A stretch of 64,000 nt of DNA, taken from assembly GCA_016278485.1 (NCBI GenBank), contig JADQBT010000010.1, positions 186,001 through 250,000 on the forward strand. The letters run 5' to 3'. Position numbers and translations under genes: made by a program. This stretch comes from Halanaerobiales bacterium. GTDB lineage: Bacteria > Bacillota > Halanaerobiia > Halanaerobiales > Halanaerobiaceae. Shown here piece after piece: positions 10,579-61,624 of this stretch. The notes under the pieces are model-generated. The model searched no databases. It was not told the DNA's origin and was given only the letters and a program-made list of their open reading frames with translations. The first letter of the stretch is position 1. Every line of letters starts with the position of its first letter.

Positions 10579-12144
10579 CTAATGTTTAAAATGTCTTATT
10601 CCGGTAAAGACCATACTTATTCCTGACTCATCACAGGCTGCAATAACCTGATCATCTCGAATGGAACCTCCTGGTTGTACAATTGCTTTAATTCCTGCCT
10701 GGGCTGCTTTTTCGATTGCATCTGGAAATGGAAAAAATGCATCAGAGGCCACAACACCGCCTTCTGCTCTAATGCCTGCTTTGTGACTTGCAATTTCCAT
10801 TGCATCTACCCTACTCATCTGACCTGCCCCCACTCCAATCAACATTTTTTCTTTAGCCATTACAATTGCATTAGATTTTACATGCTTAACTGTTTTCCAG
10901 GCAAAGAGCAAGTCTGCCAACTCTTCTGGGGATGGTCTCCGATCAGTAACTACTTCCAGATCAAAAACATCTATATTTGCTAAGTCTTTGGACTGGACTA
11001 ATAAACCACCAGCTACCTTTTTAAAGTTATATTTAGCCTTTCCAGGTTTTTCAAATAAATCAGCAATTTCCAACAATCTTATATTTCGCCAGCGTTTTTT
11101 TAAAATATCCAGAGCCTGATTGTGAAAAGATGTTGCGATCACAACTTCAATAAACTTGTTATCAGCAACCATTTCCCGGGCAGTATTTTCATCTACCTCT
11201 CTATTGAAAGCAATGATACTACCAAATGCTGATAATGGATCTCCTGCATGTGCTCTTAGAAAAGCTTCTCTTAGATTATCTCCCTCTGCTAAACCACATG
11301 GGTTAGCGTGTTTCATAACTACCGCTGCAGGACGATCAGGGAAATCTTTAATGATTTCAAGCGCAGCATTTGCATCATTAATATTATTAAATGATAACTC
11401 CTTACCAGCTAGCTGTACCGCTGTTGTAATTGATGACTCTTTTTTACCTTTTTCCTGATAAAAGGCAGCCTTCTGATGTGGATTCTCACCATATCTTAAA
11501 TCCATTTTTTTCTCGTAATTTATTAAAAAAGTTTCTGGAAAACTTTGCTCTTGCTCAATATTTTCACTCAAATATTCTTGAATAATAAAATCATAATCTG
11601 CCGTATGCCGAAAAGCCTTGTAAGCAAGCCTTCTTTTAAACTCAGCACTCAATGCTTCCCCAGCTTTAACTTTTGTTGCCAGATCATTATAATCAGTTGG
11701 ATCTACCACTACTGCTACATCTTGATGGTTTTTTGCTGCAGCTCTAATCATGGTCGGCCCACCAATATCAATATTTTCCATTGCCTCTGCCCTGCTTACT
11801 CCTGCTTGCGCAATAGTCTCTGCAAATGGATATAAGTTAGCAATTACCAGGTCAATCGTCTTTATATCATACTTTTTGAGTTCTGCTTGGTGTTCTGGAT
11901 TTTTCCTTAAAGCCAATAACCCGGCCTGGATCACAGGATGAAGTGTTTTAACACTGCCATCCAACATTTCAGGATAACCTGTTAATTCACTGACTTTTGT
12001 GACTTGAAGACCAGCTTGACTAATTTTTTGAGCAGTTCCACCTGTCGAGATTATTTCCACACCTGCTGCTTCTAAACTTTTTGCCAATTCTATAATTCCT
12101 GTTTTATCTGATACACTTATAAGTGCTCTTTTAATTATTGTCAT
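10579..12144 (-). CDS. purH: Bifunctional AICAR transformylase / IMP cyclohydrolase
   Basis: Performs the last two steps of IMP synthesis, 521 aa. The N-terminal IMP cyclohydrolase (MGS-like) domain covers about 1-195 (ALISVSDKTGI, STGGTA, GRVKTLHP-type block DGSVKTLHP). The C-terminal AICAR transformylase domain contains VMKHANPCG with its catalytic Lys-His pair. AAAGGAG precedes the ATG. It is the last gene of the pur operon, 25 bp after purN. purD and purK are absent, so GAR synthesis and any N5-CAIR synthetase must be encoded elsewhere. Confidence 0.97.
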   Translation of the reverse strand: MTIIKRALISVSDKTGIIELAKSLEAAGVEIISTGGTAQKISQAGLQVTKVSELTGYPEMLDGSVKTLHPVIQAGLLALRKNPEHQAELKKYDIKTIDLVIANLYPFAETIAQAGVSRAEAMENIDIGGPTMIRAAAKNHQDVAVVVDPTDYNDLATKVKAGEALSAEFKRRLAYKAFRHTADYDFIIQEYLSENIEQEQSFPETFLINYEKKMDLRYGENPHQKAAFYQEKGKKESSITTAVQLAGKELSFNNINDANAALEIIKDFPDRPAAVVMKHANPCGLAEGDNLREAFLRAHAGDPLSAFGSIIAFNREVDENTAREMVADNKFIEVVIATSFHNQALDILKKRWRNIRLLEIADLFEKPGKAKYNFKKVAGGLLVQSKDLANIDVFDLEVVTDRRPSPEELADLLFAWKTVKHVKSNAIVMAKEKMLIGVGAGQMSRVDAMEIASHKAGIRAEGGVVASDAFFPFPDAIEKAAQAGIKAIVQPGGSIRDDQVIAACDESGISMVFTGIRHFKH

Positions 12145-12169
12145 TTAGCAAAAACACTCCTTTAACTAA

Positions 12170-12781
12170 TTATTTAATGAAAACTTTACGTCCTTTTATC
12201 TCAATCCTATCTTCGGCAATTATTTTTATTATCTCTGGTAACAATTTATGTTCTTCTTTTAAAATTCTCTCACTTAGACTGGCAGGTGTATCATTTACCT
12301 TTACAGGTACCACTCTTTGGCTAATAATTGGCCCTGAATCAACCTCTTGATTAACAAAATGAACTGTACAACCACTATATTTCACTCCATAATCAACTGC
12401 CTGTTTTTGGGCATTAAGGCCTGGAAAAGCAGGTAATAAGGATGGGTGAATATTAATAATTTTAGCTGGATAATTTTTAATAAAATTTGGACTTAAAATT
12501 CGCATGAAACCAGCTAAGACAATTAATTCAATATTTTTTTCTTTTAAAAGTTCAAATATTTTTTTCTCGAAAGTGCCCTGGTCAGCAAATGCTTCTCTTT
12601 GCACAATATGATCTTCTAAACCATGTTTTTTGGCTCTCTGCAAGGCTTTAGCCTCTGGTTGGTCACTTATTACTAATTCTATCTTTGCAGGTAATTTACC
12701 TGCTTCAATCTTATTAATAATCGCCTGAAGGTTACTTCCCCTACCAGAAACCAGGACAGCTAGCTTTAGTTCATTTATCAA
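12170..12781 (-). CDS. purN: Phosphoribosylglycinamide formyltransferase
   Basis: Transfers formyl from 10-formyl-THF to GAR, 203 aa. It has the phosphate-binding VSGRGSN at the N-terminus and the active-site blocks [10 protein letters not shown] and [12 protein letters not shown]. The start is TTG at 12781, overlapping the purM TGA stop by 4 bp, with AAGGAG about 10 nt upstream, suggesting translational coupling. Confidence 0.96.
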
Positions 12782-13815
12782 GAAAATTCAACTCCTTTTT
12801 GACCAGCTTGAACTTCCCCAATTGAGCAAGCTTCTTCCCCAGATTCTTTAAGGAATTTAATGACCTGCTCGGCTGAATTTGCTTTCACTATCAATACAAG
12901 TCCAATTCCCATATTAAATGTTTTATACATTTCTTCTTTTGCTATTTGCCCAGCTTCTGCAATAAGTTTAAAAATTGGTAATTTAGGCCAACTCTTTTCA
13001 AAAAGAACTACTTTCTTTTTCTCTGGCAATATTCTTGGTATGTTTTCTACTAAACCTCCACCTGTAATATGAGCTATTCCACGCACTTTCTTATCTGAAT
13101 ATCTAGCTAATAAATTTAAGACTGATTTCACATAAATACGAGTTGGTCTAAGCAACTCTTCTCCCAATTTACAGCCTAACTCATTTATTTGCGTATCTAA
13201 TTGGTAGTTATTTTCTGCAAGTAATGCCTTTCTAACTAAAGAATAGCCATTACTGTGAATACCGGACGAAGAAAGTCCAATTACTTTGTCTCCAACTTCT
13301 ATCTCATTACCTGTAATTAATTTACTTTTATCTACAATGCCAACCGCAAAGCCGGCTAATTCATACTCTTCCTCTGCATAAAAATCTGGCATTTCTGCTG
13401 TTTCACCACCGATTAAAGCTGCCCCTGCTAATTTACAGCCGGCGGTAATTCCTTTAAGCAATTGACTATGTTTTGCTGGATTTAATTTACCTGTTGCCAA
13501 ATAATCAAGAAAAAATAATGGTTTTGCTCCTTGGGCCAGAATATCATTAACACACATTGCCACCAGATCAATTCCAATTGTATGATGTTTATCTAACATA
13601 AATGCAATTTTTAATTTTGTACCAACTCCATCAGTCCCAGATACTAGAACAGGCTCTTTAATACCAGAGAGATCCGGTTGAAAAAGACTACCAAAACTAC
13701 CCAGTCCGGTTAATACACCAGGCGTAAAAGTAGAAGCTGCATCAGACTTTATTTTTTCAATAAAATTATTTCCTGCTTTAATATCTACTCCAGCATCCTT
13801 ATAGCTGAGCCCCAT
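12778..13815 (-). CDS. purM: Phosphoribosylformylglycinamidine cyclo-ligase (AIR synthetase)
   Basis: ATP-dependent ring closure of FGAM to AIR, 345 aa. Typical blocks are [35 protein letters not shown] and [16 protein letters not shown]. The frame opens further upstream (13848), but AGGAGG at about 13822-13828 and the family N-terminus (MGLSYKDAG) fix the ATG at 13815. It overlaps the end of purF by 17 bp. Confidence 0.96.
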
Positions 13816-15268
13816 CTTCTTTTCCTCCTTTTTCTTCTTTAGTCTCATCTAACTCACCTTCTCCATTAACAAGTTCTTTTCCGACAGGATATTGACTATC
13901 AAAACAGGCTGTACAAAACCCGGTTTTTTCAAGTCCAACTGCTTTTAAAAGACCTTCTTTACTAAGATAGTGGAGTGAATCAGCCCCAATATATGATGCA
14001 ATATCAGAAATTTCCATCTGTCGTGCAATTAATTCCTGTCTCTTTGATGTATCTAAACCATAATAGCAGGAATCAGTTACTGGTGGAGAAGAAATTGCCA
14101 TATGCACTTCTTTGGCACCCGCCGCCCAGACACGATTAATAATCTGCTTACTAGTAGTTCCCCTTACAATTGAATCATCAATTAAGATAACTCTTTTCCC
14201 CGCAATGATCTGCCTAATAGGTGTTAATTTCAATCTTACACTCAAATCTCTAATTTTTTGTGTTGGCTGAATAAAAGTCCTGCCTACATATCTATTCCGC
14301 ATAATTCCTCTAGCATATTTGATGCCTGACTCTTCCGCAAAACCTAGCGCTGCTCCCAGACCTGATTCAGGAACAGGAATAACAAGATCAGCTTCGATAT
14401 TTGTTTCCTGAGCTAACATTCTCCCCATTGCTTCTCTAGTAAGTTGGACGTTTTTTCCGGCCATTACACTGTCTGGTCTCGCAAAATAGATAAATTCAAA
14501 TACACAAAAACTTTCTTTGCGCTGACTAGCATAGTGGAAACTTTTTACTCCTTCATCATTAATTACAACTAACTCGCCAGGTTCAATCTCTCTCACAAAT
14601 TCAGCATCCATTAATTCAAAGGCTGCTGTTTCACTAGATAAAACCCAGCCGCCTTCCATTTTACCCAGAACAAGTGGTCTAAAACCATGTGGATCTCTTG
14701 CACCAACCACCCCATTTTCTGTTAGGGCAACCAGACTGAAGGCACCACGCAATTGATGTAAACTCTGGACTAATGCATCTATCAAATTATCTTCAAATGA
14801 GCGAGCAACAAGATGAGCAATTACCTCTGTGTCAAGTGTAGAATGAAAGATAGAACCGTGACTTTCAAGATTATGGCGAAGCTCTTCGCCATTTATTAAA
14901 TTTCCATTATGGGCCAGAGCCAGATCTCCTTTAATGGAATTAATGAGCAATGGTTGTGCATTTACCGGTAAACTTGAACCTGTTGTTGAATAGCGAACAT
15001 GTCCAATAGCTGACTCACCTTTTAATTGCTTCAATAATTCAGCTGAAAAAACACTGTCAACCAAACCCATTCTTTTATGCAATTTAAATTCGCCCTGCTG
15101 ATTAATACAAATACCTGCACTTTCCTGACCTCTATGCTGTAATGCTAACAAGCCGAAATATGTCAAAGTTGCTACATCATGCCCCTGCTCACTGAAGACA
15201 GCAAAAACTCCACACTCTTCTTCCATTTTGTCTAGCTTTCCATTTCTGCAGGAATCGCATTCTGCCAT
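13799..15268 (-). CDS. purF: Amidophosphoribosyltransferase, Fe-S type
   Basis: First committed step of purine synthesis: PRPP plus glutamine to phosphoribosylamine. The N-terminal Ntn glutaminase domain has the nucleophile cysteine in [11 protein letters not shown], exposed after propeptide removal. The phosphoribosyltransferase domain has [14 protein letters not shown], the PRPP loop. Cysteines in [21 protein letters not shown] and FCTACF match the four 4Fe-4S ligands of the B. subtilis type. The start is uncertain: 15268 (GAGGAG upstream, 489 aa) or the ATG at 15226 just before EEECGVF. It overlaps purL. Confidence 0.96.
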
Positions 15269-17448
15269 TGCTTTTTCATCTCCTCAAGGTCAAGCTTAAT
15301 TAATCCATCTATTATAAATAACTTTTCTGGAATTACTGTTCCCAGAACTGTCATTGCTATCTCATTTTTGCAAGCAATATTTTGAATGTTATCCAAATTC
15401 TCTTTTTCTGTAGTAATGATTATTCTACTTTGTGTTTCACCAAATAATTCAGCTACTTTACTTATATCTGAGTCTGGAAGGTTAATCTTAATACCCAGTT
15501 CTTTTCTAAAAGTTGATTCTGCTAAGGCGACTGCCAGTCCACCTTCGGAACAATCATGAGCTGATTTGACAAAACCTTTTCTTATTGCAGTCAAACAAGT
15601 CTGCTGAACTCTTTTTTCATATTTAAGATTAATTTCAGGTATAGAGCCTTTTTCTTCACCCAAAATTTCTTTTAAATATTCTGTACCACCTAATTCTTCT
15701 TTAGTTTCACCAAGCAAAATAATTTGATCTCCAGCATCTTTAAAATCATGGGTTGTAACATCTTGCAAATCACGGATCAAACCCACCATCCCAATAATAG
15801 GAGTAGGGTAAATAGCTCCATCAGGGCTTTCATTATAAAAACTTACATTACCACCTGTAACAGGTGTTTCAAGCTCTAAACAAGCTTCACTAATACCCTG
15901 GGCCGCTTCTTCAAATTGCCAAAATACTTCTGGATCCATTGGATTACCAAAATTAAGGCCATCTGTAATTGCTAACGGTTCTCCTCCACTACAAACAATA
16001 TTTCTCGCCGCTTCCGCAACAGCTATTCTTCCCCCAACTTTGGGATTTAAATAACAGTAGCGACCGTTACAATCTGTAGTAAGCGCTAAACCCTTGTTTT
16101 TGCCTTTAATTCTTAAGACAGCTGCATCAGAACCTGGCAATACCAGAGTATTGTTCTGTACCTGTTGATCATATTGCTCATAGACCCATTTTTTACTAGC
16201 GATATTCGCAGAAGCTAATAATTTTAACAACACTTGATTGTAGTTTTTAGCTGCTGGATTAGCTTCAATCAACTTATTTATATCTAATTTTTCTATTTCA
16301 GTAAGGTAAGCTGGTCTACTTGAATCTCTTTGATAGACTGGTGCATCATCAGCAAGTGCTTTAGCTGGAACTTCAGCTATTATTTCTCCATCATGCAGAA
16401 CTCTAATCATACCATCAGCTGTCACCTTACCAATGACTGCTGCATGCAAACCATATTTAGCAAATATTTTTTCTACTAATTTTTCTTTACCTTTGCGAGG
16501 GACAACAAGCATTCTTTCTTGTGATTCTGATAAAAGCATCTCATAAGGAGTCATCCCTTCTTCTCGACAAGGAACTTTACTCATCTCCATTTCAATGCCT
16601 GCTCCACCGCGACCGGCCATCTCCGAAGAAGAACTAATTAAACCTGCTGCCCCCATGTCTTGGATCCCAACCAATACGCCACTCTTTATTAACTCCAAAC
16701 TTGCTTCTAGCAGGAGTTTTTCCATAAAAGGGTCTCCAACCTGTACAGCAGGTCTATCCTCTGCAGATTCATCTGTCAATTCATCTGAAGCAAAACTAGC
16801 TCCCTGAATACCATCCCTACCTGTTGCAGCTCCAACTACCATTACTGGATTTCCTTTTCCACTGGCAGTTCCTGTTGCAATATCATCATGTTCCATTAAG
16901 CCAACTGACATTGCATTGACTAAAGGATTACCTTGATAAGCTGCCGCAAAATTGACTTCACCACCCACAGTTGGAATTCCAATACTATTTCCATAACCGG
17001 CGATGCCAGCAACTACCTCTTTAAAAAGATATTTAACATGATTGTTATTCAAATTGCCAAAACGCAAAGAATTCAGCGAAGCTATTGGCCTGGCCCCCAT
17101 GGTAAAAATATCCCTAATAATTCCACCGACACCTGTCGCTGCACCCTGATATGGCTCAATTGCTGAAGGGTGATTATGACTCTCTATTTTAAATGAAATA
17201 GCTTGATTATCCCCAATGTCAATTATGCCTGCATTTTCACCTGGTCCTTGCAGTACTCTTTTACCTTCAGTAGGAAATTTTTTTAAAATAAGCTTTGAAT
17301 TTTTATAGCTGCAATGTTCTGACCACATTACTCCAAACATGCCAAGTTCAGTATAATTTGGCTTTCTTCCTAATCTAGCAACAATCATTTGATATTCTTC
17401 TGCTGTAAGTCCTTCTTTTTCCCAGACAGTTTCCTGATTATGCGCCAA
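15232..17448 (-). CDS. purL: Phosphoribosylformylglycinamidine synthase, PurL subunit
   Basis: Small-type FGAM synthetase synthetase subunit, about 738 aa (B. subtilis type), working with PurQ and PurS. Blocks include [33 protein letters not shown] and [15 protein letters not shown]. The frame has an ATG at 17505, but that would overlap purQ by 68 bp and add residues unlike the family. AGAGGTGG followed by TTG at 17448 gives the usual N-terminus ([14 protein letters not shown]) and an 11-bp overlap with purQ. Confidence 0.96.
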
Positions 17449-18139
17449 TTTTTCCACCTCTACTTTGCAAAAAATTAATGATTGAATCAAATATTTTTTT
17501 GCCATCTACATTTCCAAGTATTTCTTCAGCAGCCCGTTCGGGATGGGGCATTAGACCAAACACATTACCGGCTTTATTGGTTATTCCAGCAATATTATCA
17601 ATTGATCCATTTGGATTTTCAATCTCATCTTTATAGCGCAATACAATCTGATTATTTTTTTTAAGTTCTGCCAAACCCTTTTTATCAATAAAATAGTTTC
17701 CTTCTTGATGGGCAACAGGGATTCTTAAAATTTCAGCTTTTTTTGTCTGGTTAGTAAAAGGAGTCTCTGCATTTACAATTTCCAGCTCAACTGTTTTACA
17801 GATAAACTTAAGCGAATTATTCACTTTCATCGCACCTGCTAAGAGGCCTGCTTCAAGTAAAATTTGAAAGCCATTACAGATTCCGACTACAAGTCCACCT
17901 GCCTCTGCATAGTTAACTACTTCACCCATCATAGGTGCAAAACGTGCAATTGCTCCAGAGCGCAAGTAATCACCGTAAGAAAAACCACCTGGTAAAAATA
18001 TACAATCATATTTGCTCAAATCTTGTTTGGTATTATGCCAGAGCATATCTGTCTCGATATTATAGACTGAATTTGTTACCTGAAATATATCTTGATCACA
18101 ATTTGAACCTGGAAAAGTTATCACAGCAAACTTCATCAC
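17438..18139 (-). CDS. purQ: Phosphoribosylformylglycinamidine synthase, PurQ glutaminase
   Basis: Class I glutamine amidotransferase, 233 aa, supplying ammonia to PurL. The N-terminus is [15 protein letters not shown]. The nucleophile cysteine is in [11 protein letters not shown] and the catalytic His-Glu pair in LMPHPERA. It starts at the last base of the purS stop region; an adjacent second ATG (18136) is equally possible. Confidence 0.97.
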
Positions 18140-18396
18140 TATCCCACCTCACTAATATCAAAACTATATTCTTCAATAACAGGATTTGCTAATAAACGTT
18201 CACACATTTCTGTAACCTGTTCTGCTACTGCATCTTTTCCCTGTTCAGTCTCTATCTCTAATTCTAAATATTTACCAATACTTAGTTTTGACACATTTTG
18301 ATAGCCAAGACTCTGCAGACCATCTTCAACAGCTTGTCCCTGTGGATCCAGAATACTTTCTTTTAATTTAATTTCAATTTTTGTTTTCCATTTCAT
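18139..18396 (-). CDS. purS: Phosphoribosylformylglycinamidine synthase, PurS subunit
   Basis: Small bridging subunit of the PurSQL complex, 85 aa. The pattern (K..I.LK.SILDPQG.AV...L..LGY) is characteristic. It sits directly between purC and purQ with no spacer, the usual Firmicute order. Confidence 0.96.
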   Translation of the reverse strand: MKWKTKIEIKLKESILDPQGQAVEDGLQSLGYQNVSKLSIGKYLELEIETEQGKDAVAEQVTEMCERLLANPVIEEYSFDISEVG

Positions 18397-19116
18397 TTAT
18401 TTATTGTCACCATCCTGAATTCTTTTTAGTATCTCTTGATAAGCTGCTGTAACATTACCAAGATCTCTTCTAAATCTATCTTTATCAAGTTTTTCGCCTG
18501 TTTCAAGATCCCAGAAACGACAGGTATCTGGTGAAATCTCATCCCCAAGAATAACTTTTCCCGCCTTATTTTTACCAAATTCCAATTTGAAATCTATCAA
18601 GTCTATCTCTTTTTCCTGCAAAAAATCATATAAAATCTCATTAATTTGAAAAGCCAACCAACTCATTTCTTCCAATTCATCAACAGTAGCAAGCTCCAGT
18701 GAATCTATATGAAACTGATTGATCATTGGGTCACCCAATTCATCATTTTTATAATAAAATTCTAAAATAGGCTTCTTAAGCATTGTACCCTCTTTTAATC
18801 CAATTCTTTCTGCCAGACTTCCAGCTACTTTATTCCTCATTACAACTTCGACTGGAATAATTTCTAGCTTTTCAACTAACACCTCTTTAGCACTTATTCT
18901 TTTAATCTGATGATGGGGAATTTGATGTTTGGCTAACAGATCAAAAAAGATGATTGATATTTCATTATTTAAGACGCCTTTTTTATTAATCTCACCTTTC
19001 TTTTGACCATTAAATGCTGTTGCATCATCTTTAAATTCAACTATTAACTGTTCTGTAATATCTGTAGTAAAAATTTTTTTTGCTTTTCCTTCATAAATCA
19101 ACTCTAATTTTTTCAT
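18397..19116 (-). CDS. purC: SAICAR synthetase
   Basis: Phosphoribosylaminoimidazole-succinocarboxamide synthase, 239 aa, joining CAIR and aspartate. Blocks: YEGKAKKIF at the N-terminus, FKDDATAFNGQKKG, VVMRNKVAGS and DEISPDTCRFWD. The ATG overlaps the purB TGA by 4 bp (ATGA). Confidence 0.97.
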   Translation of the reverse strand: MKKLELIYEGKAKKIFTTDITEQLIVEFKDDATAFNGQKKGEINKKGVLNNEISIIFFDLLAKHQIPHHQIKRISAKEVLVEKLEIIPVEVVMRNKVAGSLAERIGLKEGTMLKKPILEFYYKNDELGDPMINQFHIDSLELATVDELEEMSWLAFQINEILYDFLQEKEIDLIDFKLEFGKNKAGKVILGDEISPDTCRFWDLETGEKLDKDRFRRDLGNVTAAYQEILKRIQDGDNK

Positions 19117-20516
19117 TTTATCCTCCCTAAATTGAGCTTCTCCTGCCAGCTAACTACAACATCTTCTGTTCTTTCCACTGCCTGTCCAATATATTTACCT
19201 GGTTCTCTTAAAATAGCACGTTGTTTTTTAGTGAACTTATCAAAATAACAATTAAGCTTATCATCATTTTCAGCAAGACTCTGTACTGATTTACCTGTTT
19301 TTTCTGCTTGCAAGGTAAGCTTTCTTACTGTTTCATGAGCAGCCGGATGCCCATAAGATGCCAGCAGGATATATAAAGGTTCCGCCAGAATTAAGTTTTT
19401 ATTTATATTTAAATTTTTTTCTATCTGCTGATGATTAACTGCAAATTTAGCAAAAACACGATTTAATCTACTAGTAGAAAGATATAGTCCGATTATTATA
19501 TCTGGTAAAAATCTGGCTGAAGCTGAATTTGTTAAATCTCGTTGGTGTTCTGATAGTTGATCTAAATAGACTGTTGTCATCCGAGGCATAATAGCCTTCC
19601 AGAGACTTTTTACGTTTTCATAATTTATGGGATTTCTTTTATGAGGCATTGTGGATGAACCAACTTGACCTTCCTCAAAATACTCACCCACTTCTGCAAT
19701 TTCTGTTCTCTGCAAATGACGCATGTCATCACTTAATGAAGCCAATACACTAAAAGTAGAGACCAAACTATGCATAAAATCAGTTAAAAACTCTGGTTCA
19801 ACTATCTGGGTTGAATGAGTAGCTGGACTAAGTCCTAGCTCTGCTAGAACTTCTTTTTCAAAATCGGCTGGATTAGAAAAAAACAAGCTGCTAGCATTAT
19901 ATGCTCCTACTGCTCCTGAAAACTTGCCCCGTAGCTGATTGGTGGCTTCTTTGACTGCTAAGATTCTTCCACCTAGCCTACTTACATATTCTGCTAAAGC
20001 AAAACCTAACGTGATTGGTACTGCATGCTGACCATGTGTTCTGCCAATCTGAATAGTCTTTTTCTCTGCTAAAGAAATTTGCATTAGTTTTTTTTCAAAT
20101 TCAATTAATTCTGGTAGAACAACTTCTTCGGTTACTTTTTTAAATCGCAGCATATTTGCAGTGTCTACAATATCAAAAGAAGTGGCAGTTAAATGCACAA
20201 ATGGTTTCACTTCAGGAGAAACTTTACGCTGAATTACATTGACCAGAGCTCGAATATTATGTCTGGTCTTTTTTTCTTCACAATATATTTCTTCTGAAGT
20301 TAACTCTGCTACTGCATACTCCACTTCTTTTAGATAATGATTTGGGCAAATTCCTCTATCCACAAGAACCTTTATTAAAGCTACCTCTACCCGAGCCTGA
20401 TATTTTATTTTTGCCTTTTCTGATAAGAATTTTTCTAATTTATCATACTCATTTTCTCGTAATGAATAGCGGTGATCAAAAGGGCTAAGATTAGAAAAAA
20501 TATCTCTAGAAATCAA
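19113..20516 (-). CDS. purB: Adenylosuccinate lyase
   Basis: Fumarase/aspartase superfamily lyase, 467 aa, acting on SAICAR and adenylosuccinate. The signature loop GSSTMPHKRNPINYENV carries the catalytic serine; the histidine blocks are TATSFDIVDTAN and IGRTHGQHAVP. The start is TTG at 20516, sharing TTGA with the purE stop and preceded by AGGAGG at 8 nt. Together with citrate lyase, which makes oxaloacetate, the window links to aspartate use at purB, purC and pyrB. Confidence 0.96.
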   Translation of the reverse strand: MISRDIFSNLSPFDHRYSLRENEYDKLEKFLSEKAKIKYQARVEVALIKVLVDRGICPNHYLKEVEYAVAELTSEEIYCEEKKTRHNIRALVNVIQRKVSPEVKPFVHLTATSFDIVDTANMLRFKKVTEEVVLPELIEFEKKLMQISLAEKKTIQIGRTHGQHAVPITLGFALAEYVSRLGGRILAVKEATNQLRGKFSGAVGAYNASSLFFSNPADFEKEVLAELGLSPATHSTQIVEPEFLTDFMHSLVSTFSVLASLSDDMRHLQRTEIAEVGEYFEEGQVGSSTMPHKRNPINYENVKSLWKAIMPRMTTVYLDQLSEHQRDLTNSASARFLPDIIIGLYLSTSRLNRVFAKFAVNHQQIEKNLNINKNLILAEPLYILLASYGHPAAHETVRKLTLQAEKTGKSVQSLAENDDKLNCYFDKFTKKQRAILREPGKYIGQAVERTEDVVVSWQEKLNLGRIK

Positions 20517-21037
20517 TTACTAGACCTCCTGTCAGCTAAATACTTATTATAACCTTTCTCCTCTAATTCCGCTGCTGTTTTCTGTACTTTACGAGCCATA
20601 TTTGTTTTATACTCTGCCAATTGTTCTCTGAGCTCTGGTTCTGCAAGAGCCAACATTTGCACAGCCAAAATAGCAGCATTTTTAGCTCCATCAAGTGCTA
20701 CTGTAGCCACTGGTACTCCGGCAGGCATCTGTACTACAGAATATAGAGAATCTGCGCCGCCCAGAGAAGAAGTTTTAATTGGTACTCCAATTACAGGTAG
20801 AGTTGTATAGGCTGCTAATATTCCCGCTAAGTGGGCTGCCTTTCCTGCTCCTGCAATAATAACTTGATACCCATCTCCAACTGCATTTTTTGCAAAATTT
20901 TCCGCAACACCTGGTGTTCTATGCGCAGAAATAACTGTCAACCGATATTCTACTGCAAACTCCTCTAATACTTCTGCCGTTTCTTTCATAATCATTAAAT
21001 CTGAATCACTTCCCATTACAATAGCAACTTTTTTCAA
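20513..21037 (-). CDS. purE: N5-carboxyaminoimidazole ribonucleotide mutase
   Basis: Class I/II PurE, 174 aa, first gene of the pur operon. It has the N-terminal MGSDSDL, the SAHRTP loop with the catalytic His, and the GAGKAAHLAG block. purK is not adjacent, so either a distant PurK supplies N5-CAIR or PurE works by the class II route on AIR directly. Sequence alone does not decide this. The start is TTG at 21037 with AAGGAG about 10 nt upstream; the leader upstream carries the tandem riboswitch. Confidence 0.95.
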   Translation of the reverse strand: MKKVAIVMGSDSDLMIMKETAEVLEEFAVEYRLTVISAHRTPGVAENFAKNAVGDGYQVIIAGAGKAAHLAGILAAYTTLPVIGVPIKTSSLGGADSLYSVVQMPAGVPVATVALDGAKNAAILAVQMLALAEPELREQLAEYKTNMARKVQKTAAELEEKGYNKYLADRRSSN

Positions 21038-21090: not shown

Positions 21091-21143
21091 AAAAAAACCC
21101 AGGTCGGAGAGACTCTACTTTGAGTAGAACCTCCCCGCCTGGG
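21091..21143 (-). terminator. Riboswitch-controlled intrinsic terminator of the pur leader
   Basis: A long stem (arms about 21121-21143 and 21098-21120; CCCAGG pairs with CCTGGG at the base) followed on the minus strand by seven Ts (21091-21097). Its 5' arm is the 3' end of the PRPP aptamer (GCCCAGGCGGGGAGG), so aptamer folding and terminator formation exclude each other. Confidence 0.92.
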
Positions 21144-21238
21144 CTTTTATCCCTTCGGTGTAATACTAATATCTAATATCTGTACCGCTTGGACCTGCCA
21201 GCTAAAAATGAGCTGCGGAAACCTAGGTACACTTCCCC
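21128..21238 (-). promoter_or_regulatory. PRPP riboswitch aptamer (ykkC subtype 2b)
   Basis: On the minus strand the region carries the ykkC-family landmarks in order: CTAGGTTTCCGC, a variable hairpin (CAGCTCATTTTTAGCTGG), GGTCCAAG, a second variable segment, then ACACCGAAGGGATAAAAG and GCCCAGGCGGGGAGG. This agrees closely with the PRPP riboswitches known upstream of purine genes in Thermoanaerobacter-type bacteria. PRPP binding is expected to prevent the overlapping terminator and turn the operon on. A ppGpp-type (2a) aptamer is the main alternative; the position after a guanine aptamer and before purE favours PRPP. Confidence 0.88.
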
Positions 21239-21305
21239 CATAGTCAGGTCATTTACGGTAACCTGGTAGAGACTTGTGGGCCATATTCCCACCGTTATAT
21301 GAGGT
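21235..21305 (-). promoter_or_regulatory. Guanine-class purine riboswitch aptamer
   Basis: Minus strand: P1 CCTC, the core ATATAA, P2 GTGGG/CCCAC, the core GTCTCTACC, P3 CAGGT/ACCTG with the loop CGTAAAT, then GACTATGG. The C in ACTATG is the specificity base for guanine/hypoxanthine; adenine aptamers have U there. The 3' strand of P1 (GGGG) runs directly into the 5' end of the PRPP aptamer. Confidence 0.95.
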
Positions 21306-21341
21306 CAATCTTTTTATATTTATTTGTCGAATTCAATTCAT

Positions 21342-21370
21342 ATAATACCAGAAGAGATTTTTAAAGTCAA
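21342..21370 (-). promoter_or_regulatory. Promoter of the pur operon
   Basis: Sigma-A type: TTGACT (21365-21370), 17-bp spacer, TATTAT (21342-21347). The -35 box begins 4 bp after the citXG stop codon. Transcription should start near 21335, about 30 nt before the guanine aptamer. Confidence 0.88.
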
Positions 21371-21373
21371 ATA

Positions 21374-22816
21374 CTATTTACTTGGTAATCTAAATAAAAT
21401 ATTCTTTAATTTATAAAAATATATAGAAACAATTAATAAATCTGCTGAACCACCTGGACTTAATTTATTTTCTTCCATATATTCTATCAACTTATTATAA
21501 TTGCATTTTCCTTTTTCAGTCTTAAATCCTCCCAAATCAAGAGTTTTTCGGGCTAAAGCTTTAATTTTTTTCAATTTGGAAATATTTCCTCTATATAAAA
21601 TATTAGTGTCATCTATTTTACTCATTAAAACTAATAATGTTTCAAGATAAGCTTTTTCCAAATTTTTATATTTATAAACCGCTTTCTTAAGTGCAGGTAA
21701 ACCATATTGAATAACTGAAGGGAAACCTGCTTCAGCTTCACCACGCGCACCATAAACTTTATAGCTCTTAAATACTTCTTCACCATGAGTATTTTCCAGT
21801 TTGCAAATTGACTTATTCTCTAATTCATTTTTTGTAATACCATTTAACCAATTAGCTGCAATCTCAGCAATATTATTGCTCAATAATTCCTCTCTTCCTT
21901 TTGGTTTAACAAAGAAATATCCTGTAGCAGCTGTAATAATTCCTAATGAAAAGATAACCCCCCGATGGGTGTTTACTCCTCCTGTAGATAAAAACATTTC
22001 TTCCTCTGCTTTTAGCCCTATCCCCTTCAATAATTCCATTGCCTGTTCGTTATTTGTATTGTTTTTAGCAATATACATTCCCTGTTTAGCAAACATCGAA
22101 AAAAAATTCTTTATTGCCTTTGCACTTTTTTTCATCATTAAATAATCCATGTCCTTATGGCTACCATTATTTAACTTATCAATTAACCCCGGTTTTGGAG
22201 ATGCTGATAATTCTTCCATTAATGCTTCATAAGCAATAATTTCAATTGATTTAATAAAATTTTCTTCAACAATTTTTTGCTTTTTTTGATAATTTTCCAT
22301 TTGCTTCTTCACATAATATTTCAACTCTTCATAAGAATGTTTCTGAAGTCTTCTACATAAATTTGCGTTAAGTTCACACAAATAGCATTTGCGCGCACTT
22401 AAACCTACTTTTTTTCTTGTAAGTGCTTCTCCCTTATAGTTGTATATATCTAAATCAAAAAATCGACCTAAATAATGATTTTCTTCAATATTAACTGTAA
22501 TTTTTTTCAAGTTTTGTGGATCTATTCTTGCTGCAATAAACTTTACAGGGCCGACTGAATTTTTGATCTTAATTTCCTTCAAACTAATAATATTATTTTT
22601 GAAAAAATTTATTTTTAATGCTCTAATTGATTCTTCAAATATTAATTTTACTATATTTCCATTTTTATTAGGACCAGGGTAATTAATTGTTATTGTTAAA
22701 AACGTAATATTACTTGCATCATATTTTGTTTCATTTAGCACATCATTGATAAATTTTTTTCTAAATATGATTCTTTCTTCTTTCTCTTTTAATAACTTCT
22801 GTATTATTTCATTCAT
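21374..22816 (-). CDS. citXG: CitX-CitG fusion: citrate lyase prosthetic-group synthesis and transfer
   Basis: A 480-aa fusion of two accessory enzymes. The N-terminal CitX domain (about 1-175; GRFFDLDIYN, RKVGLSARKCYLC, CRRLQKHSYEEL) transfers the phosphoribosyl-dephospho-CoA group to apo-CitD. The C-terminal CitG domain (about 190-480; SASPKPGLIDKLNNGSHKDMD, TGGVNTHRG, YGARGEAEAGFPS, LSPGGSADLL) makes the triphosphoribosyl-dephospho-CoA precursor. Last gene of the LacI operon, one base after citF. No terminator follows before the pur promoter. Confidence 0.92.
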   Translation of the reverse strand: MNEIIQKLLKEKEERIIFRKKFINDVLNETKYDASNITFLTITINYPGPNKNGNIVKLIFEESIRALKINFFKNNIISLKEIKIKNSVGPVKFIAARIDPQNLKKITVNIEENHYLGRFFDLDIYNYKGEALTRKKVGLSARKCYLCELNANLCRRLQKHSYEELKYYVKKQMENYQKKQKIVEENFIKSIEIIAYEALMEELSASPKPGLIDKLNNGSHKDMDYLMMKKSAKAIKNFFSMFAKQGMYIAKNNTNNEQAMELLKGIGLKAEEEMFLSTGGVNTHRGVIFSLGIITAATGYFFVKPKGREELLSNNIAEIAANWLNGITKNELENKSICKLENTHGEEVFKSYKVYGARGEAEAGFPSVIQYGLPALKKAVYKYKNLEKAYLETLLVLMSKIDDTNILYRGNISKLKKIKALARKTLDLGGFKTEKGKCNYNKLIEYMEENKLSPGGSADLLIVSIYFYKLKNILFRLPSK

Positions 22817-26487: not shown

Positions 26488-27468
26488 CTAGATTAAAACA
26501 GATAAGTCTTTTGCTACTTCAATTAAATCTAAACTAGACGTAAATTCCAAACATGTACCAGTTGGAAACCTTGTTTTTTCCTTCCATCTTTCCGGTATTT
26601 TGTCCGCACCATTAATGGCTCCATTTAGAGCGCCCACTACTGCACCAATTGTATCTGCATCACGACCAAAATTACCCGCATATATTACACCTTTTTTAAA
26701 GTTTCCTTTCGACAATTTGAATAAAGCAAAAGCCTGAGAAATAGCTTCTGGTACTGCAGCCTTGTATTTAGTCCAAAGTTCTGTATGTAAAGGTGTCCAA
26801 GCACTTTCAAGAGAATCTGACTCTTCAACAATATTAAGAGCTTTTTCAAATGTATATCTAAACCAAGAATCCTCTGGAATAACCTGGCGTGCTGCATCAA
26901 TTATTTCTTCAACACTACCATTCACCATTGCAATAGATACTGCTGCCGCTACTGCCTGTGCACCCCAAATACCATCTCTCCAATGACTGATGGATGCATC
27001 TATCTTTGCCAGTTCAGCAGCTCTTGCCGGGTCTCCAGCACAAATAATTCCAACTGGTGCGATTCTCATAGCGGCACCATCACTCATATAATGTGAATTA
27101 TATTTTCCTGTCAAAGGAGGAGTTAAACCTCTTTTTAAATTCATAGCTGCTTCAATTTCACTAGCTCCTCCCCTATAATATTCATCCTGTGGAACTACAT
27201 ATTCTAGCCAAGCTTTTTTCACAGCCTCATTAGTAAGCAAACCCTTATTTTCAATTAATGTTAATGCTGTTAACAAACTAAATTCTGTGTCATCTGTACT
27301 CCAAGAATCATTTTCATCAAAATCCATTGTTATTCCGTATCTCTTATGATTTTTATCTGTACGAGAAGCATCTCCAAAAGAATCTCCAATTGCTTGCCCA
27401 ATTAAAGCTCCCAAAGATTTATCCAATTTAAGCTCTTTATTATTTTTAATATCTTCTTGAGTTATCAA
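26488..27468 (-). CDS. ADP-ribosylglycohydrolase family protein, short type (ARH copy 4 of operon)
   Basis: 326-aa protein of the ADP-ribosylglycohydrolase/DraG fold, a dinuclear Mg enzyme family that hydrolyses N- or O-glycosidic bonds at the ribosyl anomeric carbon. Metal motifs look intact: GQAIGDSFGD (N-terminus), STDDTE (Asp59, Asp60) and FGRDADTIGAVVGA (Asp270, Asp272). In an operon with a sugar importer and ribokinase, a small-molecule ribosyl hydrolase is more likely than a protein de-ADP-ribosylase; this is inference. E. coli YegU, beside a nucleoside transporter and sugar kinase, is a comparable case. Confidence 0.85.
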   Translation of the reverse strand: MITQEDIKNNKELKLDKSLGALIGQAIGDSFGDASRTDKNHKRYGITMDFDENDSWSTDDTEFSLLTALTLIENKGLLTNEAVKKAWLEYVVPQDEYYRGGASEIEAAMNLKRGLTPPLTGKYNSHYMSDGAAMRIAPVGIICAGDPARAAELAKIDASISHWRDGIWGAQAVAAAVSIAMVNGSVEEIIDAARQVIPEDSWFRYTFEKALNIVEESDSLESAWTPLHTELWTKYKAAVPEAISQAFALFKLSKGNFKKGVIYAGNFGRDADTIGAVVGALNGAINGADKIPERWKEKTRFPTGTCLEFTSSLDLIEVAKDLSVLI

Positions 27469-27492
27469 TTATTACACCTCATTTAAATGTCT

Positions 27493-28815
27493 TTAAATTA
27501 AGTTAATAGTTCTTTGCGCCAGTTCATCTATGTTCATGTTATCAAAACCTTTCAAACTACTTCTAACTCGATTTTGTAATGGGTCTATCCATTTTTTATT
27601 TATTTTGTCATAACCTAACAAAGTACCCATTATGGCACCTACAGTAGCACCATTACAATCGGTGTCCCATCCCCCCATAACTACATTAGTTATCGCTTTA
27701 CTATAATCATTATTTGAATAAATAATAGCTGCTACTAGTAGTGCTGCATTATTAATCGTATGTACCCAATTATAATCTCCATACTTATTATGCAATAAGT
27801 TAACGGCCTCTTCCCAGATAGAAGTCTTATTGGGTAAATCCAAAGAAAACCTGATTGCTTCTGCAAGTTTGCTTTCTTGCGGAATTCTTGATAAGCCTAT
27901 TTTTATAGCCTCTAAGGGATCATTTACCACAAAAGAGGAAGCTAAAACGGCGGCCACAAATAATGCACCATAAACTCCATTATTGCGATGTGTAAAAATT
28001 GCATCACGCCAAGCTAGTTCAACAGCCCTATCAGGATCTCCAGGTGACACCCATCCCCAAAGATCTGCTCTAATTTGTGCCCCAATCCATTCTTTATAAG
28101 GATTATAATATTCTCCAGCTTTTTCAACTGGTACAGAATTAAGAACATTTAAATAAGCCACTCTTTCAGCAGTAAAAAGCGACAAAACTGGCAAGCTCTC
28201 TAACCAACTTGTAGCTAACTCATCTAGGGTAAAATCAAACCCATATTTTTCGATAATATATAAGTTTAACATAGTGAAATTTATATCGTCATCTTCTGGC
28301 ATAGCAATTATATTTTCCTTTAAACTTTCTTTACCTCCATATTTATTCCAAGGATATTTTTTTAAAAATTTTGACGGTACATTTCTACCTGTAAAATAAT
28401 CATTCAAAGGCCAACAATTATTATAATGAAGTAATTCATTGATGGCCTCCCGATTCATTTTTTCTACTGGTTTACCAAGTAAACAACCGGCGATTCTTCC
28501 ATACCATCCTCCAAATATTTTGTTCTTTAATTCATCCTTATTTATGCTTTGATTTGGTGGTACATATGACCCTGTTATTTTTTTGAGCTTAGCTAATCCT
28601 ACAGATGCTTCATAAGTAAAATCCTTTTTTATATTTATTTCATTTAATTCACTTAGAATTTCAAAGGCTTTTCTTCTTAACACAATTAAGTCTTTAGTTG
28701 AACTCTTAAATAACTCCCATTTATTTTCAAATAATTCAACATCTACTCCTAAATTTTTTAACTCTTTAAAAGCATAATCAATTTTATCTTCAGGATTAAC
28801 ATAAGTTACCTTCAC
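27493..28815 (-). CDS. ADP-ribosylglycohydrolase family protein, long type (ARH copy 3)
   Basis: 440 aa with a roughly 95-residue N-terminal extension before the ARH core (KIFGGWYGRIAGCLLGKPVE at about 99-118). The acidic motif is EDDDINFT (174-181) and the C-terminal motif GGWDTDCNGATVGA (Asp384, Asp386). The Cys-Asn after DTD and the extension are shared with the distant ARH gene at 56667, so the two form a subfamily. The GTG start at 28815 has GGAGG 8 nt upstream; the upstream ATG codons would lie inside the previous gene. The extension resembles no domain I can name. Confidence 0.83.
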   Translation of the reverse strand: MKVTYVNPEDKIDYAFKELKNLGVDVELFENKWELFKSSTKDLIVLRRKAFEILSELNEINIKKDFTYEASVGLAKLKKITGSYVPPNQSINKDELKNKIFGGWYGRIAGCLLGKPVEKMNREAINELLHYNNCWPLNDYFTGRNVPSKFLKKYPWNKYGGKESLKENIIAMPEDDDINFTMLNLYIIEKYGFDFTLDELATSWLESLPVLSLFTAERVAYLNVLNSVPVEKAGEYYNPYKEWIGAQIRADLWGWVSPGDPDRAVELAWRDAIFTHRNNGVYGALFVAAVLASSFVVNDPLEAIKIGLSRIPQESKLAEAIRFSLDLPNKTSIWEEAVNLLHNKYGDYNWVHTINNAALLVAAIIYSNNDYSKAITNVVMGGWDTDCNGATVGAIMGTLLGYDKINKKWIDPLQNRVRSSLKGFDNMNIDELAQRTINLI

Positions 28816-29887
28816 TAGATTCACCTCCATTTTGAAAGGTGGTGTAATTATCTTCACCTAAAGAAGCAAGGTTGTTGATTAATTTGATATAATTTATATT
28901 TTTTAAATTAGGTATAGCAATACCCTTTAATTTTTCAACTTTGTTATACCAAATATTTGGAATTTCATTATCTCCCAGATATGCACCTAGAAGAGCTCCT
29001 ACCATTGCTGGAACAGAATCTGCAGTTCTTGCAAGTGAAGCGGAAGCAAATAAGGTCTCTGAAAAATTTTCAGAACCAGCTTTAAATAAAGCTAGCGCAA
29101 TAGGTAATGTTTCTGGTGCCGATGTTCCATAACTATATATATTTTCTATTAAATCATCTGCTAAAATAGGTACTAAAGAAAAAACATCAACATTAGATGC
29201 AATTTCCAAAGCTTTTATAGTATTTCGATGTAACCAACTTAACTCATCTATTTCTTTGAGCCCTACACTTATAGCTTCATCAATAGTTCCATCATCCACT
29301 AAAACTGAGATAATCGCTGCCAATGCTTTTGCTGCTTCCAATCCATCAAATGAATTTGTTACTTCTACTTCTTTTTGACAAGCTAAAGCAGCCTTTATGG
29401 GTTTTCCAGCTAATAATACACCATAAGGAATTGCGCGTGGACAACCAGAATCATCAAAATAATGTGGGTTGTCTTTACCTGTTATGGGTGGTACTTTCCC
29501 ACTTTTTAGATTTTTTATGGCAGATCTAATACTTATACTTCCTTTAATGTTATCTTCATTTTTGACTAATTGTCTCCAATTGTCTAAGATAATATTTTTG
29601 TCAGGTTGCTTTTGACATGAAATTATTAATTGTGCACTAAAACTTGCCCATTCAGTATCATCTGCTGGACCAATTTTAAAAGAGGACTGAGATCTATTTA
29701 GTGAAAAAGGAACCGACGGTCTAATAATTTTATGAATTTCTGCTTCATCTTCAATCTCTCTACGTAGTCTCCTTGTCCAATCTGGTAATAAGTGTCCTCT
29801 CTGAAAAAGAGCTGGCCAACTTATTGCATCCCCAACAGCTAAACCCAACATACAGCCTAGTGCTTTACTTCTATTATAGACCATCAT
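28796..29887 (-). CDS. ADP-ribosylglycohydrolase family protein with degenerate metal site (ARH copy 2)
   Basis: 363-aa short-type ARH protein. The N-terminal motifs are present (MLGLAVGDAISWPA; GPADDTEW, Asp76-Asp77), but the C-terminal motif reads LARTADSVPAMVGA: Thr288 (codon 29024-29026) replaces the first metal-binding Asp, while Asp290 remains. It also has an unusual insertion rich in Arg and Glu (about 35-65). It may be catalytically weak, have altered metal use, or act as a partner of its intact neighbours. It overlaps the preceding ARH gene by 14 bp with a good AAAGGGGGA ribosome site. Confidence 0.8.
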   Translation of the reverse strand: MMVYNRSKALGCMLGLAVGDAISWPALFQRGHLLPDWTRRLRREIEDEAEIHKIIRPSVPFSLNRSQSSFKIGPADDTEWASFSAQLIISCQKQPDKNIILDNWRQLVKNEDNIKGSISIRSAIKNLKSGKVPPITGKDNPHYFDDSGCPRAIPYGVLLAGKPIKAALACQKEVEVTNSFDGLEAAKALAAIISVLVDDGTIDEAISVGLKEIDELSWLHRNTIKALEIASNVDVFSLVPILADDLIENIYSYGTSAPETLPIALALFKAGSENFSETLFASASLARTADSVPAMVGALLGAYLGDNEIPNIWYNKVEKLKGIAIPNLKNINYIKLINNLASLGEDNYTTFQNGGESSEGNLC

Positions 29888-30857
29888 TATCCCCCTTTCG
29901 CTCCATTAATTTTTCTGTTATATCACCGATACTTAACCCCTTTACAGTCTTAATACAACTTCCCCGTGCAGGTGTAATTTTATCCTTCCAAGCAACAGGA
30001 ATTTTCTCTATTCCTTGAAAAGCACCAGCTATAGCACCAGTAATAGCGGCGTTAGTATCAGTATCACGGCCAATATTTACGCCTCCTAATACCGAATCAA
30101 CAAATGTGCATCTGGTAGATGCTAAGATTCCAAATGATAATCCCAAAGCTTCTGGAGCTAAATCTGCCCATGGATAACAATCGTATACTAATTCTTCGTA
30201 AAGTACAGGAAGTGCTTCTTTCATATTGCTAAATTGTTCACCAATTGAAATACCTTTTCTGACAGAACGATAAGTCCAGGAATCTTTTGAAATATGTTTT
30301 AGTGACTCAGTTAATATTTCTTGATAATCATTTGTTTTCATAGCTATAGAAATTGCTGCGGCTACAAGCCTTCCCCCCATAATCCCTTCTCCTGAGTGAC
30401 TTACTTGACCGTCAATTTCAGCAATTTCAGCAGCCCTATCTGGATGACCCCAAAAATATATTCCAAATGGTGCTACTCTCATTGCTAACCCATCACTCCA
30501 ACTGTGGATATGCTTGCCAGAAGATGGTGGACGCATGCCAGATCTTAAATTCTCTATTGTGGCCATTTCACTAAAACCTGCACCACTGAATCCTTCAGTT
30601 TGAACTGCAATTTTATCTAACCATTCTTTAGCAATTTTTTCTGATGTAATTTCTTTACCATATTTTAATAACAACCGTGCATTAAATAGTGCGTACTCTG
30701 TATCATCACTTACTGCCGCATCTTTTGAAATAAAGTCAGTAATATAACCATACTTATCTTGGATTTCATTATAAGTATTTCCTTCAACAGGCTGGCCGAG
30801 GGCATCGCCCACGGCCAATCCTATAAAAGCACCTAATGCTTTATTTATTTCATCCAT
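29874..30857 (-). CDS. ADP-ribosylglycohydrolase family protein, short type (ARH copy 1)
   Basis: 327 aa with the full ARH motif set: FIGLAVGDALGQPVEG near the N-terminus, VSDDTEY (Asp51, Asp52) and NIGRDTDTNAAITGA (Asp265, Asp267). It is the first of four ARH genes, 19 bp after the solute-binding-protein gene. The family fold is secure. The substrate is unknown, but context suggests the ribosyl compound brought in by the adjacent importer. Confidence 0.86.
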   Translation of the reverse strand: MDEINKALGAFIGLAVGDALGQPVEGNTYNEIQDKYGYITDFISKDAAVSDDTEYALFNARLLLKYGKEITSEKIAKEWLDKIAVQTEGFSGAGFSEMATIENLRSGMRPPSSGKHIHSWSDGLAMRVAPFGIYFWGHPDRAAEIAEIDGQVSHSGEGIMGGRLVAAAISIAMKTNDYQEILTESLKHISKDSWTYRSVRKGISIGEQFSNMKEALPVLYEELVYDCYPWADLAPEALGLSFGILASTRCTFVDSVLGGVNIGRDTDTNAAITGAIAGAFQGIEKIPVAWKDKITPARGSCIKTVKGLSIGDITEKLMERKGDNDGL

Positions 30858-56666: not shown

Positions 56667-58052
56667 TTAATCTACTGGAGTTACACGTCTTGTCCATTCA
56701 GCTAACCATTTAATTGAAATATCTTCAAACCCAGGCAGATAGGTCTGCAATCTATCAGCAAATGGTTCTGTCCACTTGCTTGGAATAGCACTCGGGTTCA
56801 TCACACCTATAATTGAACCGACTTCCCCAGCATTACAATCTACATCCATTCCACAATCTGCCAGAATACGCATTGCTTTCTCAAAACTATTATCACAATA
56901 ATAAAGTGAATAGACTACCGCTACTAAATTCGGATAGGTATGTATCCAATTATATTTCTTTAACTGTTCTGCGGTAGCTTGCCAGGCAGTACGGTGGTCT
57001 TCCTCTTTAATCGCGTTTTCCATAGCCAACTGCATGAAATAGTAAAATTCACTATTTACAGGTAAGTATGCTGCTGATTTTTCTAAAATAGTTTTCGTAT
57101 CTTGATAGACAAAAGCCAGAGCCGTCATTACAGCAGAATGGATCTCACCATAAACACCATTTTTCTCATGAGAAACGATCCCATCCAGATAGGCAAAACG
57201 AGCAGCTTGCATCGGTTTACCAGGAGCTACAAAACCACAAACCATACCTCTCATTTGTGCCCCAATCCACTCAGAAAAAAAGTTATCAAAATTACCAGAA
57301 AGTGGTGGATAAAGTCCTTTTTTGAAATTTTCAAGTGCTATATATTCTGCTGACCAACCAAAAGGAATCAGTTCTAACCATTTATCTGCAATTTCATCAG
57401 CGGTTAAGTCTTTTCCTCTTCCTTCAAGTGCAGCTAAAAATGCAATTTGAAAAGTAATATCATCATTATAGGTTTCTGGTTCTCTGACATAATAATTTAA
57501 TTTATCTCCATATACTTCATTAATAGCCTCACCTGTATAACCTTCTAGAGCAGTTCCATATGCACCTCCTGCAATCTGGCCGTACCAGCCCCCTAATACT
57601 TTCCGTTCTAGATCTTTTGCGGATAACTTTGGCTCTGCAAATGGTTCCGGATATGGCATTGCAGCTTTGATCTCATTCCAGTTAACAGGATTATCATAAC
57701 TCCAATAACTATGATTATCATTGATAGGGGCTTCTCTTAAAGCTTTTCTTAATCTAGCCGAAATTACTTCTAACCTGCGATAATTTTTATCTTTACAGGC
57801 TTGAATACCTCTCGGAATTAAAGCTTCTGCTTCTTGAACATTATATCCTCTATTTGACCAGGCCTGGACCATCTCAATATATAGTGATTCAGGCGCTCTG
57901 GAGCCAGGCACCTTGCTGTCCCATAGCATTGCTAGCATTTTATCTCTAGCTGCCTGCATTTCGTTAAAACCTGACCAATCACTCTCTTCTTCCTTAAAAT
58001 CAACTGGTATCGCATTTCTTCTCTTTTCTTGTTCATACTGCCAAGCTTTCAT
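56667..58052 (-). CDS. ADP-ribosylglycohydrolase family protein, long type (fifth ARH in window)
   Basis: 461 aa. A roughly 150-residue N-terminal region rich in Trp and charged residues precedes the ARH core (VLGGWYGQIAGGAYG at about 152-166). Acidic motif YNDDITFQ (Asp197, Asp198); C-terminal motif GMDVDCNAGEVGSIIG (Asp403, Asp405). It shares the long form and the DxDCN signature with the gene at 27493. It overlaps the nucleoside-type permease by 20 bp, which ties it to import of a ribosyl compound, perhaps as a nucleoside hydrolase-like enzyme. Confidence 0.84.
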   Translation of the reverse strand: MKAWQYEQEKRRNAIPVDFKEEESDWSGFNEMQAARDKMLAMLWDSKVPGSRAPESLYIEMVQAWSNRGYNVQEAEALIPRGIQACKDKNYRRLEVISARLRKALREAPINDNHSYWSYDNPVNWNEIKAAMPYPEPFAEPKLSAKDLERKVLGGWYGQIAGGAYGTALEGYTGEAINEVYGDKLNYYVREPETYNDDITFQIAFLAALEGRGKDLTADEIADKWLELIPFGWSAEYIALENFKKGLYPPLSGNFDNFFSEWIGAQMRGMVCGFVAPGKPMQAARFAYLDGIVSHEKNGVYGEIHSAVMTALAFVYQDTKTILEKSAAYLPVNSEFYYFMQLAMENAIKEEDHRTAWQATAEQLKKYNWIHTYPNLVAVVYSLYYCDNSFEKAMRILADCGMDVDCNAGEVGSIIGVMNPSAIPSKWTEPFADRLQTYLPGFEDISIKWLAEWTRRVTPVD

Positions 58053-61545: not shown

Positions 61546-61564
61546 GATACACCTCTTTTCAACT

Positions 61565-61594
61565 AATAAAAAGCAAAGAGGGGAAACCCCCTCT
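61565..61594 (-). terminator. Partial terminator between the BMP-type binding protein and the ATPase
   Basis: AGAGGGG (61577-61583) pairs with CCCCTCT (61588-61594), extended by one G-C pair, with a small loop. On the minus strand it is followed by TTTGCTTTTT. It lies inside the operon, 30 bp after the binding-protein stop, so it probably limits transcription of downstream genes rather than ending the operon. Confidence 0.7.
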
Positions 61595-61624
61595 CTGTTA
61601 TATTTATATTTAATTATACACTAT

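Follow-up and report, generated by a model that had tools for sequence, protein, structure and literature searches.

The leader of the purine operon in this Halanaerobiales bacterium raises the question of which ligands its two abutting RNA domains sense, and of how both of them could act on a single terminator. In the 64,000-nt stretch analysed here (the window), the leader (21370-21091) is flanked by a CitX-CitG fusion gene (citXG, end 21374) and purE (start 21037), and every riboswitch part is located on the minus strand (Table 1). With high confidence, the purE operon is controlled by this leader acting as a tandem guanine-PRPP riboswitch whose aptamers share a single terminator and probably exclude each other by strand exchange. 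A first-pass annotation had already placed such a tandem before the pur genes, without naming the strand, and this assignment is borne out by the matches to RF00167 and to a PRPP model, by the markers C49 and G96, by the purine operon itself and by the overlap of the terminator with the second aptamer. Its gapless adjacency of the two aptamers and its use of the PRPP aptamer 3′ end as a terminator arm likewise hold, the hairpin beginning inside the aptamer.

Table 1. Features of the purine operon leader and its operon, in window coordinates.
Feature	Position	Strand	Basis
Promoter-like site: -35 TTGACT (21370-21365), 17-nt spacer with TG, -10 TATTAT (21347-21342)	21342..21370	-	Consensus match only
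Guanine (purine) aptamer with flanks as model-matched; core 21304-21236	21221..21322	-	RF00167, 88.6 bits (cut-off 37), E 8.7e-15
Guanine P1 5′ strand (A)	21298..21304	-	Fold
Guanine P1 3′ strand (B), common to extended P0	21236..21242	-	Fold and tandem comparison
PRPP (ykkC-2b) aptamer as matched by held-out model R1	21122..21240	-	85.0 bits, E 2.5e-23
P0 5′ strand (GGAA)	21233..21236	-	Fold
P0 3′ strand (UUCU)	21126..21129	-	Fold
Proposed P0 extension 5′ strand (UGGG), within guanine P1 3′ strand	21237..21240	-	Fold and comparison
Proposed P0 extension 3′ strand (CUCA), in segment C	21121..21124	-	4 pairs, -3.5 kcal/mol here
Intrinsic terminator: hairpin from about 21144, U tract 21097-21091	21091..21144	-	Fold
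purE, first gene of the operon	20513..21037	-	TIGR01162, 201.6 bits, over cut-off
Operon remainder: purB, purC, 85-aa ORF at the purS place, purQ, purL, purF, purM, purN, purH	10579..20516	-	NCBIfam

The first aptamer was recognized with the covariance model of the purine family (RF00167), a search proposed in the first-pass annotation; the alignment is full length and above the gathering score. It was the sole Rfam match at gathering level within the window, and in the whole genome RF00167 and RF00442 matched once each, both at the pur leader. As read from the RF00167 alignment, the window carries U22, U51 and C74 (xpt numbering) and has no insertions in J2-3. This combination is the marker rule given for guanine-I aptamers (PMC9295807), and the first aptamer is probably a guanine sensor, judging from the guanine binding of published relatives.

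The class of the second aptamer had to be read differently, because the Rfam 15 search of the window yielded no PRPP-named match, and a model (R1) was therefore constructed from 27 PRPP aptamers at loci not labelled Halanaerobiia (27 of 28 thinned sequences; L076, truncated at the locus end, was omitted). R1 matched only this aptamer in the window, so that the PRPP model hit on which the first-pass annotation had staked its reading was obtained with the purpose-built model and not with a named Rfam family. The Guanidine-I model (RF00442) resembles the aptamer in fold and aligned on it as a whole (21237-21134) under relaxed thresholds, but the score of 61.4 bits lies under the gathering score of 63, the marker position carries C instead of A and a P0 helix is present, which places the aptamer outside that class. 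According to PMC6031431, PRPP aptamers are distinguished from guanidine-I aptamers by a pyrimidine at position 49 in place of A, and from ppGpp aptamers by G at position 96, which is >97% conserved in PRPP aptamers and is another base in ppGpp aptamers. With positions transferred from the Thermoanaerobacter mathranii RNA by motif and spacing, the window has C49 and G96, with A103 G104 G105 in register. Position 96 was located from the spacing between it and the A103 G104 G105 motif, for which no other fitting register was found, and position 49, whose pattern read-out is unreliable in 32 of the 121 loci compared, was used for the window alone, where the RF00442 alignment agrees. A5 G6, A103 G104 G105 and the P0 helix formed from the paired ends are all present, and A101 is replaced by G, a purine being permitted there under the rule in PMC6031431. 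These features support assignment to the PRPP (ykkC-2b) class, with PRPP binding expected from published relatives.

In 61 genomes, a guanidine-I-type match was found in 36 (42 matches), a purine aptamer in 47 and an R1 match in 47, and all 42 RF00442 matches lie directly behind a guanine aptamer P1. Scanning named genomes with a sequence pattern added at least 119 stretches, including Halanaerobium, Orenia, Desulfosporosinus, Priestia megaterium and Tissierella; 12 of these lie outside the compared set, some being chance pattern matches in unrelated sequence. Among the listed pattern matches, three are in MAGs labelled Aminicenantes, Desulfovibrio and Kofleriaceae. No aptamer was recognized around the Aminicenantes- or Kofleriaceae-labelled stretches, and the Desulfovibrio-labelled stretch resembles a PRPP singlet that is possibly a binning error. 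Conservation in the at least 119 pattern loci, G96 included, is partly by construction, because the PRPP 3′ motif is partly included in the scan pattern. The 42 RF00442 loci and the R1-search regions are independent of the pattern, although 31 of the 42 passed a similar anchor motif, and strands B and C lie outside both the pattern and the anchor motif. The anchor-motif set comprised 142 rows with 10 misses and 124 distinct sequences, or 122 after two were lost in re-anchoring; sorting by eye moved five loci from tandem to singlet and eight to tandem and dropped L154, which resulted in 79 tandems and 42 singlets. Twenty-nine of 60 relative loci were missing from the anchor set, and all of these except L175, L176 and L177 (26 loci) were recovered. 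Two tandem riboswitches per genome were observed in G025, G028, G031, G033, G035 and G037, which belong to one family (f7).

At the junction the two aptamers abut directly, with guanine P1 ending and PRPP P0 beginning at the same base, 21236. Pair 3 of P0 is A-U in 85 of the 121 loci and G-C in 35; among the 79 tandems, 34 have G-C at pair 3 and 33 have G-U at pair 4 (A-U and G-C in most others). An alternative layout in which a spacer separates the aptamers, suggested by 11 loci where the R1 match begins 42 to 112 nt after the guanine match, was rejected because the PRPP 5′ end directly follows guanine P1 and the extra length lies in the P1b loop. Insertions in this loop of the PRPP aptamer were observed in L162-L172 and also in L057, L133 and L154; the insertion gaps are 42 to 112 nt, many are AT-rich and some consist of a 7-base unit, and they leave the junction undisturbed. 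They are possibly small mobile elements tolerated in the aptamer loop.

Downstream, the terminator folded alone reaches -35.2 kcal/mol, and its 5′ arm is built from the 3′ portion of the PRPP aptamer and P0; the call is made from fold and sequence reading, because a simple terminator scan of the region reported none. Upstream, the good promoter described in the first-pass annotation corresponds to a site with 10 of 12 consensus matches. It is graded as plausible only, because the region holds six such sites against 2.7 in shuffles. Three bases separate the citXG stop codon from this promoter-like site (window 21342-21376). No terminator was reported between them by the scan that also missed the downstream terminator, and any transcription continuing past the citrate lyase operon would run into the riboswitch and be subject to its control.

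Purine synthesis genes up to IMP follow the tandem riboswitch. The products of purE, purC, purQ, purL, purF, purM, purN and purH scored over the NCBIfam cut-offs, purB was slightly under its cut-off (306.8 of 326.2 bits), and the purS-like ORF of 85 codons (18139-18396) was assigned by place only. purD lies outside the operon, on another contig and 3′ of a purA-like gene (L180, G000:C13:25462-26727), and no Rfam matches were found in 4.3 kb around that locus. At 31 loci of the 61-genome set, most of which extend only about 1.5 kb downstream, the first downstream gene found is purD in 19, purE in six, purB in one and none of the set in five; many relatives, unlike the window's genome, have purD as the first gene after the tandem riboswitch.

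The ligand binding, switching and gate logic proposed for this RNA are drawn from published work on relatives. On the one hand, guanine binding would hold the A:B pairing that makes up P1 in the first aptamer; formation of P1 would leave the 3′ segment of the PRPP aptamer free to serve as the terminator 5′ arm, turning expression OFF. On the other hand, PRPP binding would hold P0 of the second aptamer, lengthened by pairing between strand B and the immediately downstream strand C, and the terminator arm would then be locked in the aptamer and P0, turning expression ON. Strand B would be available to one helix at a time, either P1 or the extended P0, and this competition together with the locking of the terminator arm would leave the operon mainly off at high guanine and low PRPP. 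The locus has the adjacent aptamers and single shared terminator by which IMPLY gates are recognized. In such a gate PRPP is expected to override guanine, and the published IMPLY truth table includes ON with neither ligand (PMC5912903). In our energy model the leader terminates by default (-84.4 with P1 forced vs -57.4 with the PRPP state forced; -52.0 vs -43.1 before the terminator arm is made), which is consistent with OFF in the absence of PRPP; ON with neither ligand is not predicted. Such models leave out tertiary contacts, ligand and timing. The PRPP state in the energy model is predicted to need both ligand and tertiary contacts.

If strand B has to alternate between partners A and C as the switch changes state, B and C should covary between lineages. 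Seven bases of B were compared with 12 bases behind P0 at 105 tandem loci, which gave 64 distinct pairs. The mean B:C energy was -4.16 kcal/mol, compared with -3.37 (sd 0.14) when C was permuted, where no permutation among 20,000 matched the observed value, and with -1.90 for shuffled C. Related sequences are non-independent in these statistics, and taking one pair per B type (14 types; -4.32 vs -2.93 kcal/mol, mean p 0.0008) reduces but does not remove the effect of kinship. Examples are UACGAGG with UUCGUA (L003), UACGGGG with ACCGUA (L141, L156), UACAGCC with GUUGU (L062), UACGGGU with ACUUGUA (L171) and UAUGAGG with CUCAUA (L010). Against strand exchange, only three base pairs are formed in 16 of the 64 distinct pairs, those of Desulfosporosinus are mostly GAG with CUC, L034 is weak (-1.0), and the window's own helix is short. 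The corresponding stretch of singlets is also complementary (-3.61 vs -1.95 shuffled) yet not beyond permutation; 1083 of 5000 permutations were as good, which counts against extended-P0 covariation outside tandems. The covarying strands thus support, across lineages, a probable mutual exclusion of the aptamers by strand exchange. We lean, with modest confidence, towards an IMPLY gate based on an exchange among three strands that selection has maintained in tandem lineages, in which the 3′ side of guanine P1 would pick either its upstream partner or a downstream mimic of that partner situated close to the top of the hairpin of the terminator. If this is true, the covariation would fix the gate mechanism, which is called unestablished in the literature consulted (the consulted part of the 2022 review, PMC9481103, describes the structural changes in the tandem gate as still to be established), and each species' guanine-to-PRPP balance would be set by how strong its competing helices are.

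The same tandem riboswitch could also achieve exclusion by crowding of the junction (steric clash) alone, with B:C pairing incidental, an alternative put forward in PMC5912903 and favoured by the close spacing of the P1 stems, which lie 4 to 6 nt apart in 79 tandems (41 loci with 4 nt, 35 with 5 nt and three with 6 nt). We consider this unlikely, given that crowding alone would not require the covariation of B with C found between tandem lineages, and that the singlet stretch, although likewise complementary, stays within the permutation range. Stand-alone guanine riboswitches usually possess their own terminator, and the leader might on that ground be viewed as a series of two riboswitches that act independently through separate expression platforms (a NOT-A-AND-B gate). 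The shared base 21236 leaves no room for separate platforms, however, and the 11 apparent spacers fall inside the P1b loop with the junction unchanged, which makes the serial arrangement exceedingly improbable.

It is also very unlikely, to a lesser degree, that the second aptamer reads another ykkC-2 ligand, either ppGpp (2a) or a nucleoside diphosphate (ADP/CDP, 2c). The ykkC-2 subtypes have most of their consensus in common and the guanidine-I model alone cannot separate them; the class comparison for the window covered the guanidine-I and PRPP models. G96, however, argues by the published rule (PMC6031431) against ppGpp, whose binding the first-pass annotation had named as the finding that would overturn its assignment; de novo purine genes lie downstream and a guanine aptamer adjoins the second aptamer. 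2c RNAs accompany NUDIX or HAD-like hydrolases, and the gene context argues against ADP/CDP.

Tandem guanine-PRPP riboswitches, their IMPLY logic and their purine genes have already been published (PMC5912903), and the present locus is a further ordinary case of this class. By 2022, 192 cases had been counted. It resembles the tandems of Sherlock et al. 2018 (PMC5912903; review PMC9481103) in the order and contact of the aptamers, the single shared terminator over the PRPP aptamer and the de novo purine genes, and differs from them in nothing of kind; its P0 is GGAA/UUCU, and its spacing is 4 nt as against the 5 to 7 called typical in PMC5912903. With the T. mathranii tandem (6CK5; Knappenberger et al. 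2018, PMC6031431) it shares the P0 helix, the contact residues and the predicted exclusion between P0 and guanine P1. Knappenberger et al. predicted this mutual exclusion from one structure in T. mathranii, whereas here it is read from covariation over many loci, and the consulted part of Sherlock et al. (PMC5912903) leaves alternative pairing versus crowding undecided. The idea of strand exchange thus precedes this analysis, and the comparative support across lineages is what is added. No title on the exclusion mechanism was found among the later literature searched, where subscription papers are poorly covered, and such work may exist. The covarying strand pair makes the exclusion of the aptamers amenable to a simple mutational test, and natural B:C pairs of differing strength provide a series in which the guanine/PRPP balance should shift predictably.

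The first-pass annotation had further suggested that neighbouring operons supply ribose 5-phosphate, the precursor of PRPP. Upstream, and in the same direction, lie citXG, citF, citE and citC, four ADP-ribosylglycohydrolase genes, and genes for a solute-binding protein, two permeases and a PfkB kinase (citF and the permeases being identified by reading translations), and beyond the kinase lies a pyr operon, named by translations. In a synteny set of 120 loci, of which 105 included 1.2 kb or more of upstream sequence, the citXG/F/E/C genes, four hydrolases, binding protein and kinase were found upstream of the riboswitch at none of the 119 other loci and are the window's own. The genes for PRPP synthetase are on other contigs. 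The ribose 5-phosphate link was dropped on the synteny result, and a contribution of the neighbouring genes to PRPP supply is not supported. The four ADP-ribosylglycohydrolase-family genes are consecutive (window 26488-30857) and stand with the sugar ABC transporter, the PfkB kinase and a LacI-type regulator (by translation), and a fifth gene of this family (by translation; 56667-58052) lies beside another ABC transporter (56667-62632). These clusters may form a pathway for ribosylated compounds.
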